From NCBI GenBank assembly GCA_963662175.1, contig OY759223.1:16346249-16410248 (forward strand): DNA of 64,000 nucleotides, in the 5' to 3' direction. Under the pieces are notes generated by a model that saw only the letters and a list, made by a program, of their open reading frames with translations, was not told the origin of the DNA and did not search any database. This DNA comes from Aradus depressus (taxonomy: Eukaryota > Arthropoda > Insecta > Hemiptera > Aradidae). This document shows, piece after piece, positions 6,002 through 55,017 of this stretch. The position numbers and the translations under genes were made by a program. The first letter of the stretch is position 1; each line of letters begins with the position of its first letter.

Positions 6002-6593
6002 ATATTCAGTGCTAAATGCAGTGTGTACATCCTGAATGATGATTCCTCTTGGCTTCTACCAAATCACCACGACTGGATTTGCGATAGAGAGGGTCTGTCC
6101 AAAAGATGGTCAGCCCCGATCAAAGTGAACAATATTCGCGATTTTTATCCAAATGTTTGCATTAATTTATAACAAACGTCATATCAAACACCATCATTAA
6201 TAACGAAAAACAATCATTTATAAGCGATGGGGTTAGCGTTGTGCTTGTTAGAGATCAATTGACTTCAATTGTTATGCAAATTAGTTTGTTTAATCAGCAA
6301 GTACTAGTTTTGCATTTCGATTTCAAACTTTATCATGGATCCATTGTTAAAATTCCAGTCACAAGATCAGCATTGTTAAATAAAGTTCCTTGCCTCTTCA
6401 ACATTCAAAAAGTCATTTTTAAGTTCCCCAGCCATAAAAAGTATAGGGGAAGTTATGTATTCGTTCAGAAATTCGATGTTGAGATTCCACTGGAATTCCA
6501 AGTTTTCCAACCCATGGTTCCAAAAAAATGAAAAAGTGTGTGAATAGTTACATCTTCTAAGTAGAGGACCGCGGACATATTGTGGAATTTGTA
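6002..6593. other. Unassigned sequence with an MR fragment
   Basis: 6002-6240 is unrecognised. 6425-6535 is MR ('aagtataggggaagttatg', 'cagaaattcgatgttgag') with a 96-codon open frame running through it that has no protein similarity I recognise and is probably chance. 6557-6593 matches the first ~35 bp of the fold-back element at 53694 ('gcggacatattgtgg'). Confidence 0.45.
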
Positions 6594-6822
6594 ATAAATA
6601 AATAAAACAAACTTATTTTTTGAAATATTGTCTATTCCACTAAAGATATTTATAAAACTACCGGTTTCGGCCTCACACCATCGTCAGGTCTAGTTATGAA
6701 CATAATTAATAATTCATAACTAGACCTGACGATGGTGTGAGGACGAAACCGGTAGTTTTATATATTTATATCTTTAGTGGAATAGACAATATTTCAAAAA
6801 TATGTTTGTTTTATTTATGTAT
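6594..6822. mobile_element. Fold-back element A with paired hammerhead-like cores
   Basis: Two ~105-bp arms are near-perfect reverse complements around a centre at about 6706 ('gttatgaa'/'ttcataac'). Each arm contains the CTGACGA..GAAACCGGT core (plus strand at 6721-6760, minus strand at 6657-6693). It is the same family as element B at 53694-54083 but lacks B's spacer. No clear target-site duplication was found. The layout recalls inverted pseudo-LTRs of Penelope-like elements, though no reverse transcriptase gene is present. Confidence 0.8.
6721..6760 (+). ncRNA. Hammerhead-like ribozyme, family A/B
   Basis: Core CTGACGA at 6726-6732, one extra T, stem II loop region, GAA at 6745-6747, palindromic stem III ACCGGT (6748-6753), and A6754 as the nucleotide before the predicted cleavage site. 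Stem I is GAC (6723-6725) against GTT (6755-6757). Stem II is damaged in this arm (GGAC instead of GGCC), while the opposite arm keeps GGCC. With a zero-loop palindromic stem III, activity would be expected mainly from a dimer. Confidence 0.6.
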
Positions 6823-19139: not shown

Positions 19140-19390
19140 ATCTTTTATACAACTTATTTCCTCTCTAGAGTTGAGGAGGGAGCACTCTCTCTTCCTCCTT
19201 TCCAATTTAATTTCTATACTTTCTAAGATATCAATCTTTCTCCTTTTTTGGATATGGTCTAGCAACGAGACTGAATCGCCCCTCCTCAAATGTTCCCTCA
19301 CTCTAGTCCTCAGCTTCCGGCCTGTTTGCCCAAGATAAAAACATTCACAATCTTTACAATTAATCACACGCCGGATTTGTCACTTTATCT
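19140..19390 (-). pseudogene. Penelope-like element GIY-YIG endonuclease fragment
   Basis: The minus-strand peptide reads INCKDCECFYLGQTGRKL then RTRVREHLRR, ILESIEIKL and SLLNSREE. This is the GIY-YIG nuclease layout of Penelope-like element proteins: conserved Cys pair, Y-GQTGR, R-REH, then the E in the ILE motif and LLN. About 80 residues are open. An in-frame stop precedes INCKDC, and the upstream reverse transcriptase is missing. In an intact element this domain nicks DNA for target-primed insertion. Its presence matters because the hammerhead-bearing fold-backs in this window look Penelope-related. Confidence 0.75.
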
Positions 19391-47067: not shown

Positions 47068-47398
47068 AAAAATAAAGAAAACGTATGTTTTTTAAATAAT
47101 ATTGTCTATTTCACAAATAATATATAATATGGGAGTACTTTCGGTATTGCTACCATCTTCAGCCACGACTTAACAAATACTGTATTTGTTAAGTCGTGGC
47201 TGAAGATGGTAACAATACCGAAAGTACTCCCATATTATATATTATTTGTGAAATAGACAATATTTTTTAAAAAACATACGTTTTCTTTATTTTTTAAAAC
47301 ATAAAAAATGACATTTCGTCCCAAATTGGGATCTTAAAAATAAAAAATTTAAATTAGTATGTGTTGATTAAATGCATATCTCTGCAAAAATGTTAAAT
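47068..47398. mobile_element. Fold-back element C with hammerhead-like cores, 14-bp TSD
   Basis: Perfect 14-bp direct repeats 'atcatttgccttat' flank it (47054-47067 and 47399-47412). The first ~225 bp are an almost perfect palindrome centred at about 47181, followed by ~105 bp of non-palindromic AT-rich tail. Each arm holds a CTGAAGA..GAAAGTACT core (plus 47195-47233, minus 47131-47166). Asymmetry plus a variable-length TSD points to retrotransposition rather than cut-and-paste. Confidence 0.88.
47195..47233 (+). ncRNA. Hammerhead-like ribozyme, family C
   Basis: Stem I TGG (47197-47199) pairs with CCA (47230-47232). Core CTGAAGA (47200-47206), extra T, stem II GGTA/TACC (47208-47211 and 47216-47219) with loop ACAA, GAA (47220-47222), palindromic stem III AGTACT (47223-47228), H17 = C47229. 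All elements of a type I hammerhead are present, apart from the extra T and a stem III without a loop. Confidence 0.72.
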
Positions 47399-53336: not shown

Positions 53337-53681
53337 ATCTTAATTTTTATAATTTTTCAAAAAAACTACGACCACTATTTTATAATTATAAATTATTTAT
53401 TTATTTTTATTCTATTTTTATTACAATTTGACATTTTTGTGAAACGCGTTTGAATCACCTTCCTCTCAGTTTCCTTGAACGATGGTGCTACTCCTTAGGA
53501 AATAATCAATATTTATTGTGCCAGGTCTTCTAAGAGTATATAATTATGTAACAGCGTACTCATAGTGTACAGTTTAGAAATATGTAAGATTTGCTATAAG
53601 TTGGATCAACGCCCGGTCTATGTTCGGCCTGTTACAATAAATGCTGCTCCACCAAATTGCCTACCCTGGGCCCGGTTGGGC
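53337..53681. repeat. Repeat R53, copy 1
   Basis: Matches 54118-54377 plus 54789-54893 ('ttcttgaacgatggt'-like, 'taacagcgtactcatagtgt', 'cccggtctatgttcggcc'). Interrupted copy 2 is explained by an insertion at 54378-54788. Confidence 0.75.
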
Positions 53682-53693
53682 TAATATCAAATG

Positions 53694-54083
53694 ACTTGAG
53701 GAACGCGGACATATTGTGGAAACTTGTAATAAATAAATAAAACAAACTTGTTTTTTAAAATATTGTCTATTCCACTAAAGATATAAATATATATAACTAC
53801 CGGTTTCGGCCTTACACCATCGTCAGGTCTAGTTATGAACTAAGTTAGTTTACAGAGAGCGACCCTTTGAATACAACTCAGATAGCTAACGGTACAGCCG
53901 GGGGACTCCCAAGTTTTAATAGCACCCTTTGACCTGAGTTGTATTCAAAGGGTCGCTCTCTGTAAACTAACTTAGTTCATAACTAGACCTGACGATGGTG
54001 TAAGGCCGAAACCGGTAGTTATATATATTTATATCTTTAGTGGAATAGATAATATTTTAAAAAACAAGTTTGTTTTATTTATT
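53694..54083. mobile_element. Fold-back element B with hammerhead-like cores, 12-bp TSD and empty site
   Basis: Perfect 12-bp repeats 'taatatcaaatg' flank it (53682-53693, 54084-54095). The paralogous repeat at 54881-54892 shows the uninterrupted site followed by 'gttttact', the same sequence that follows the right TSD. After a ~35-nt lead ('gcggacatattgtgg'), two ~155-bp arms enclose a ~50-bp spacer ('cggtacagccgggggactcc'). Each arm has a CTGACGA..GAAACCGGT core. Total 390 bp. Confidence 0.92.
53984..54023 (+). ncRNA. Hammerhead-like ribozyme, family B (intact arm)
   Basis: Stem I GAC (53986-53988) with GTT (54018-54020). Core CTGACGA (53989-53995), extra T, stem II GGT/GCC (one G-U pair; loop GTAAG), GAA (54008-54010), stem III ACCGGT (54011-54016), H17 = A54017. 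The left arm carries the same core on the minus strand (53795-53832). Confidence 0.7.
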
Positions 54084-54095
54084 TAATATCAAATG

Positions 54096-54377
54096 GTTTT
54101 ACTTCCCCGCTTTACGTATATTAAACTTAATTTTTATAATTTTTCAAAAAAACTACCATCACTATTTTATAATTATGAATTATTTATTTAGTTTTATTAT
54201 ACTTTGACATTTTTGTGAAAGGCGTTTGAATGCCGGACCAAATAAATTAACTTCTTCTCAGTTTTCTTGAACGATGGTCCTACTCCCTAGGAAATAATCA
54301 ATATTTATTGTCAGGTCTTCTAAAAGTATGTAATTATTTAACAGCGTACTCATAGTGTACAGTATAGAAATATGTAA
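54096..54377. repeat. Repeat R53, copy 2 left part
   Basis: Parallel to 53337-53590; it stops at 'gaaatatgtaa'. Confidence 0.75.
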
Positions 54378-54788
54378 AGGCGGCCACACACGCTCCGGTT
54401 TGCCTGCAGAGATATGTAATTTCGCTGTTTTTTTTAGTTTTGTTTTTTAAATGCACAAGTGTACTTTTTATTTATTTACACATATATGCAAATGATAAAT
54501 AGACTACCCCCTGCCAGAAGGCAGAGTCTGAGTGTGGGAGGGGAAGCAGTCAGCTAGGACTGTACAATCACTGTTAAAAATAATAATAAATAAAGTAAAT
54601 ATATATACACTTAGATATAATCAACAATAATAATGAGAATAGTAATACGAATGGACAGTAACTTGATAAATTAATAAAGTACGTATTAAGGTAGAAGAAT
54701 CCCTAAGAATAATGAAGAGAAGAAATACAAAAATATAAAAAAAATAATAATAATAAAAAAAATAAATCCATCAGATTTATGGCAAAGA
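54378..54788 (-). mobile_element. Insertion with LINE-like 3' end
   Basis: Separates the two halves of R53 copy 2. Read minus, 'ctgccttctggcag' hairpin then 'gtaaataaataaaaagtac' resembles a LINE 3' end; the left edge carries 'ggcggccacacacgctccgg'. AT-rich simple sequence at 54560-54780. No coding part. Confidence 0.55.
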
Positions 54789-54893
54789 CTTGCCTTAAGT
54801 TGGATCAGCGCCCGATCTATGTTCGGGCTGTTACAATAAATGTTGCTCCTCAAAATTGCCTACCCTGAGCCCGGTCAGGCTAATATCAAATGG
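54789..54893. repeat. Repeat R53, copy 2 right part
   Basis: 'aagttggatcagcgcccgat', 'ctaatatcaaatggttttac'. Provides the empty site for element B. Confidence 0.78.
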
Positions 54894-55017
54894 TTTTACT
54901 TTCCCGCTCTACGAAATGTAGGGAAACTTATTTAATATGTCAACAATTCGATGCGTTTACAACAGAATTTCATGTTTTCCAACCTCCAGATTCCAAATAT
55001 TAAAAAAAGAAAATGTG
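54894..55017 (+). repeat. MR start fragment
   Basis: 'atgtcaacaattcgatgcg', 'catgttttccaacctccag', 'attccaaatat'. Confidence 0.65.

Follow-up and report, generated by a model that had tools for sequence, protein, structure and literature searches.

The element described here occupies positions 53694-54083 of the window, which is the whole stretch of 64,000 nucleotides that was analysed and lies on contig C9 of the genome assembly. It is a real insertion, and its ends are real. The 12-mer TAATATCAAATG is present, by exact string position, immediately to the left (53682-53693) and immediately to the right (54084-54095) of the element, and the insert between these two copies measures 390 bp. A third copy of TAATATCAAATG, at 54881-54892, belongs to a paralogous repeat on the forward strand (54785-54913) in which the same site is uninterrupted. 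When the flanks are joined through a single TAATATCAAATG they align with this paralogue, from 54785 onwards, over 129 nt with zero gaps. The chance of a 12-nt match at fixed boundaries is about 2.4e-7, as calculated from base composition. An earlier note on this DNA had described a perfect 12-bp duplication, an empty site at 54881-54892 and exact boundaries for the element, and all three are borne out by the string positions and the ungapped alignment. The duplication is of the retrotransposition type, as that note had supposed, and its guess about transposition was correct in outline. The flanks of the insertion are themselves parts of other repeats that recur nearby, 53403-53587 with 54179-54377 and 53586-53693 with 54785-54892.

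Within these boundaries lie the two long inverted arms that had been reported, 53732-53881 and 53934-54083, each of 150 nt and with a single difference between them, which amounts to 99.3% identity within the element (another comparison gave 155 nt at 99%). By BLAST to a family reference, the left arm (53732-53881, reverse strand) was recognised as a pseudo-LTR (pLTR) of a Penelope-like element (PLE), 5'-truncated at reference 834 and differing at 1 of 150 positions from the right arm. The right arm is a pLTR without tail on the forward strand, which extends over 53880-54083, is 5'-truncated at reference 780 and has its end defined by the target-site duplication (TSD). The BLAST ends of the two arms overlap by 2 nt at 53880-53881, and this is the head-to-head junction. 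A neutral loop between the arms was considered and rejected; the stretch in question belongs to the right pLTR, as its 5' part, and is absent from the truncated left pLTR.

The remaining 38 nt, at 53694-53731 on the reverse strand, are found at this end only, and their complement contains ATGTCCGCGTTCCTCAA. A non-palindromic lead of about 35 nt had been noticed here. The lead is real and stands at one end, but its length is 38 nt and it is a family part common to other copies, from which its first two bases (53694-53695) differ. Since in other copies the pLTR is followed at its 3' end by the same lead, which in the copy L048 continues toward coding sequence, the lead is an extension of the repeat that is here present at one end only. 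On the evidence of these alignments the window arms are two 5'-truncated pLTRs of a PLE placed head to head, and the lead corresponds to the "tail" already known from PLEs. The window copy lacks the coding part entirely, and the evidence for RT and GIY-YIG comes from a relative, L010.

Family copies and a coding relative

A search of the 697.7-Mb, 74-contig genome with the 390-bp element yielded 1229 first-look candidates, of which 40 loci were scored. All 40 scored loci were read, and the family counts given below rest on these 40 of the 1229 candidates. Arm coordinates throughout are those of the family reference, L022:4055-5072.

The earlier note had advised looking for longer relatives that carry RT plus GIY-YIG between the arms, and one was found at L010:6182-8055. 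It is made up of a tail-bearing inverted arm, an open frame and then a tail-less pLTR, and it is flanked by the 12-bp duplication TTAATTACTAAT. A single frame (L010:6350-7627) contains both RVT_1 (PF00078, 4.1e-12) and GIY-YIG (PF01541, 2.6e-6), each above cut-off. The top relatives of this protein are 39-44% identical and include insect proteins (among the 100 matches listed, with the 7987 candidates sharing most words having been scored); against solved structures the RT/GIY-YIG fragment gave no match at E<=0.001. Pieces of the L010 coding region are retained in other copies. About 100 nt beyond the repeat and tail of L048 there is sequence resembling the N-terminus of the longer relative (31% over 159 aa), and the translation there contains stops. 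The layout of the family, with pLTR, tail and ORF in this order, is that of a Penelope-like element as far as sequence can tell, and the window element is almost certainly a PLE insertion. The link to PLEs that had been drawn earlier is thus upheld by this layout and by an RT/GIY-YIG relative having the same kind of ends.

Similar organisation is known from the Pen families of Adineta vaga, for which the accessible text of PMC3846280 describes inverted head-to-head pLTRs, a 31-bp tail that may be present at one of the two, a TSD of 8 to 10 bp and RT plus GIY-YIG. As far as that text goes, the two systems are alike in the inverted pLTRs, the one optional tail, the short TSD, the RT plus GIY-YIG and the 5' truncation. 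They differ in the tail, which is 31 bp there and about 46 nt here (38 in the window copy), and in the TSD, which is 8 to 10 bp there and mostly 12 bp here; the window copy is also without a coding part. In the same text the origin of inverted pLTRs is left open.

The window holds other sequences of this kind. Another head-to-head copy of this PLE family, older than the first, is present at 6564-6816, with one tail and no duplication found. The region 47069-47293 is a divergent head-to-head PLE-like palindrome (73-80% identity) which is tail-less at both ends, and 19149-19367 on the reverse strand is a fragment which, in tblastn, resembles the endonuclease end of PLE proteins. On contig C2, two places about 180 kb apart (L049 and L050) have 823 nt of flank and pLTR in common at 98.4%, and their element content differs in extent.

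Target duplications and tails

Ends and flanks were compared in 31 head-to-head pairs. These are the 28 pairs tested first, minus L029, in which the right pLTR continues toward coding sequence, plus L049, L052, L053 and the older pair in L051. L040 was left out, its flank being in common with that of L039 (98.4% over 823 nt), and so were window 47069-47293 (no tail), L015:900-1012 (a small pair with one tail) and other fragments in L010, L015, L022, L023 and L028. L039, L041 and L046 looked single-armed on short stretches and are pairs on longer ones (L049, L053, L052).

A TSD of 11-14 bp was present in 20 of the 31 pairs when 9-14 bp were scanned for the first 28 pairs and 9-15 bp for the later additions. 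Seventeen of these duplications are exact (12 of them exactly 12 bp) and three have one mismatch (L010a, L012, L032); no passing duplication was found by the same scans in the other 11 pairs. In a control with cross-element flanks, the score of an exact 11-mer or better was reached in 1 of 746 cases, and the flank concerned contains the tail of a neighbouring copy. The duplications of L010a and L012 should be taken as soft, because 7 and 15 of the 746 controls, respectively, reach their scores. An 11-mer with one mismatch at L049 was left uncounted as a TSD. In the 20 TSD-bearing pairs the tail ends fall at reference 1019-1031, where they are readable against the reference, and the tail-less ends fall at 977-983 in 19 of the 20, that of L036 being near 915. 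The comparison of copy ends and TSD lengths which had been suggested earlier thus gave consistent ends and duplications mostly of 12 bp. At L023:4912-6718 two PLE pairs adjoin each other, with apparently three copies of one target 12-mer (one of them mismatched), as if the same site had been struck twice.

The distribution of the tail is highly regular. Exactly one tail is present in 29 of the 31 pairs, both arms have a tail in two (L021 and L026), and there is no pair with neither, in a sample which may lean to one-tail pairs, as the 40 loci were retrieved with a one-tail query. If the 33 tails were dealt at random, 15.7 one-tail pairs would be expected against the 29 observed (exact P 6e-7). 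Five pairs were unranked by the query (L010b, L023a, L023c, window 6564 and the older pair in L051); each of them is a one-tail pair. Every one of the 20 pairs with a duplication has one tail, and the two-tail pairs L021 and L026 have no TSD. Among 13 single-arm copies, eight bear a tail, and four of these have a duplication (two exact 11-mers and two 12-mers with one mismatch); among the five tail-less ones a duplication was found in none, these single copies and L052 having been scanned with a wider slack than the 746-pair control covers. For the singles L055 and L057 the TSD test is uninformative because their 5' boundary is misplaced and the arms resume upstream after a gap.

The hammerhead-like motif

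Each arm of the window element carries a hammerhead-like motif, in the left arm at 53797-53826 on the reverse strand and in the right arm at 53989-54018 on the forward strand. These were placed by string position and family comparison, the string starting at 53989 on the forward strand and its complement at 53797. In both arms it consists of CUGACGA, U, a short stem II, GAAA and ACCGGU. A hammerhead-like core had been ascribed to each arm, and the core strings are indeed present, but they go without recognition by Rfam and have an extra base beside stem II. Rfam gave no family at gathering score in the window or in four other loci; over 53600-54200 it gave no hammerhead family at E<=10, and the two weak hits there lie far under their gathering scores.

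The extra base was followed in a sample of 57 distinct CTGANGA..GAAA strings from 283 kb of the genome. When one base behind CUGANGA is skipped, at least three stem II pairs are formed in 29 of the 57 motifs, against a shuffle mean of 3.5 and a maximum of 11 (200 shuffles). Without the skip the figure is 3 of 57, against 3.7 by shuffling. This excess of pairing with a one-base skip suggests that a hammerhead-like fold has been kept with an extra base beside stem II. Nine of the 29 skip-paired motifs are variants of the family of the window element and the others come from different repeats, for example the one at window 47200. The folding energy of the window motif is no better than that of shuffles and a different hairpin is predicted for it; in the motif copy at 47200 stems I and II are shown by folding, and the motif of 47069-47293 has different stems with the same extra base. 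As a candidate hammerhead ribozyme, the window motif may fairly be called "hammerhead-like". In the accessible text of PMC7761336, PLE hammerheads are described as minimal variants which may cleave as dimers. Two more hammerhead-like motifs, of another family, lie on opposite strands at window 62675 (reverse) and 63077 (forward), and one at window 936 (forward) has a stem II of seven pairs with the same one-base offset.

Origin of the head-to-head pairs

The lengths of the arms bear on how such pairs are made. Of the 29 one-tail pairs, 17 have a tail-less arm that extends beyond the tail arm on the 5' side by 10 nt or more (15 of them by 20 nt or more), 8 have a tail arm that extends further 5', and in 4 the two are within 10 nt of each other. 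In these 17 neither arm, as it now stands, is a copy of the other, because each contains sequence that the other lacks. The window element is among these reciprocal pairs, with 54 nt private to the tail-less arm as against the 38-nt tail. L010a and L018 lie right on the 10-nt limit, and at the junction of L010a 11 bases are left unaligned. In L052, inside a 12-bp duplication, the tail arm consists of nothing but tail, about 21 nt of it, and the other arm extends into the endonuclease-coding region. The reciprocal arms of 17 of the 29 pairs appear as if reverse transcription had begun twice, once for each target strand.

The reading we prefer, and consider moderately probable as a full scheme, is that the window element is a dead, 5'-truncated insertion of a PLE with RT and GIY-YIG, made by double target priming. 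The enzyme of the element would cut the two target strands 12 nt apart. From one target 3' end, PLE RNA would then be reverse-transcribed beginning at the tail site, at reference about 1019-1031. The other 3' end would serve as primer for another, independent round that begins at the pLTR-end site, at about 977-983, and uses the same RNA molecule or a different one. The two cDNAs would end early and then be joined head to head. Priming from both target ends at 12-nt 3' overhangs would give the observed orientation and the duplication. The two-tail pairs L021 and L026, which are without a TSD, and the 11 pairs in which no duplication passed speak against this scheme.

With a purified PLE protein, cleavage and extension take place on both strands of the target, and reverse transcription begins at two sites, the interval between them being the tail (PMC11167929). 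The element concerned, Poseidon PAc of Anolis, and the present family are alike in having two internal start sites with the tail as interval, which here would correspond to the two end positions, and in a hammerhead motif, here a hammerhead-like one, near the start of the ORF. Both target strands were cut and extended there in vitro, and the same is proposed here from sequence. In the in vitro assay the two strands did not differ in their start site, whereas here nearly every pair has one end of each kind; one tail per insertion is not predicted by the assay, because the start sites are alike on both strands. A more specific proposal, which is tentative and to which we would give somewhat less than an even chance, is an ordered two-site rule. 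The first start would always be at the tail site, and an optional second start would lie about 46 nt upstream, at the pLTR end and on the other strand; the two starts might be the work of the two halves of an enzyme dimer. Inverted copies would then result from double target priming and not from self-priming.

In L1 twin priming, synthesis is primed from both ends of the target and the joined products lie inverted inside a single TSD; the inverted part derives from further upstream on the RNA. The proposed priming from both ends is alike in the two cases, and the difference is that the two arms of the present pairs span one common 3' stretch. How PLEs integrate is poorly understood, and short truncated PLE copies record single insertion events, the ends and the junction marking where each reverse transcription began and stopped. 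No statement of the one-tail rule or of double priming for inverted PLE copies was found in the titles and abstracts listed by literature searches on the subject, the subscription literature being mostly beyond reach. The one-tail rule can be checked in any PLE-rich genome.

The same end positions could also be obtained by a template jump, in which the cDNA begun at the tail site switches template. The new template would be an antisense PLE transcript with its start close to the pLTR end, and the cDNA would be extended on it in the opposite sense. Such a jump explains the clustered tail-less ends (19 of 20 TSD pairs at 977-983) and the one tail in every TSD-bearing insertion. The single-arm copies agree with it, all four with a TSD having a tail and none of the five tail-less ones having a TSD, and antisense templates and opposite promoter motifs in pLTRs are considered in the accessible text of PMC3846280. 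However, it requires an antisense transcript, which is hypothetical here, and both ends of the tail interval are start sites of reverse transcription in PMC11167929, so the two end positions need no jump. We regard the template jump as unlikely.

Fold-back self-priming of the cDNA, by which the second arm is copied from the first and the palindrome centre is later deleted in many copies, has a published precedent, since the accessible text of PMC3846280 suggests it, on an antisense template, for inverted pLTRs with palindromic junctions. The arms are alike within an element, and two-tail pairs without a TSD do exist, the truncation points of L021 being nearly equal (681 and 683). However, a copy of the tail arm should bear the tail, yet 29 of the 31 pairs have a single tail. 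A second arm copied from the first cannot contain what the first lacks, and the tail-less arm is further 5' in 17 of 29 pairs. Deletion of the palindrome centre in a self-copied pair could imitate reciprocal arms, but in L052 almost an entire long tail arm would have to be deleted. The likeness of the arms (99.3% in the window) is not decisive, because two starts on one RNA source and self-copying both explain it. Self-priming is quite improbable as the source of these pairs, and double target priming remains the reading that we prefer.

It had also been proposed that the inverted pair, though it encodes no protein, is mobile as one unit, and the exact TSD and the long near-perfect arms speak for such a non-autonomous element. 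This was contradicted by the junctions. In the 25 one-tail pairs listed there are 25 distinct combinations of truncation points, and among the copies read (40 of 1229 candidates) none other was seen with the junction of 53880-53881. A pair copied whole would keep its junction, so each pair appears to be its own, separately truncated insertion of PLE RNA. Single-arm truncated copies also exist, and the copy with RT and GIY-YIG has the same kind of ends, which leaves a moving unit very improbable; a new class of mobile element is not supported. A DNA fold-back transposon or MITE with long terminal inverted repeats, although it would account for the TSD and the long inverted arms, can practically be dismissed, as the ends are not inverted copies of each other (the tail is at one end only), truncation points differ between copies, one family member encodes RT and GIY-YIG, and none of the loci read contained a relative in which identical ends enclose a transposase.

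Metazoan retrozymes, as described in the accessible text of PMC7229834 and PMC7761336, are likewise short, protein-less and hammerhead-bearing, and perhaps PLE-dependent. Their units are repeated directly in tandem and carry canonical type I hammerheads, whereas the window element is an inverted pair of truncated PLE ends. A retrozyme was rejected, since the arms are inverted and truncated and are not direct tandem repeats of a hammerhead-bearing monomer. The window element itself is ordinary, a dead PLE copy.
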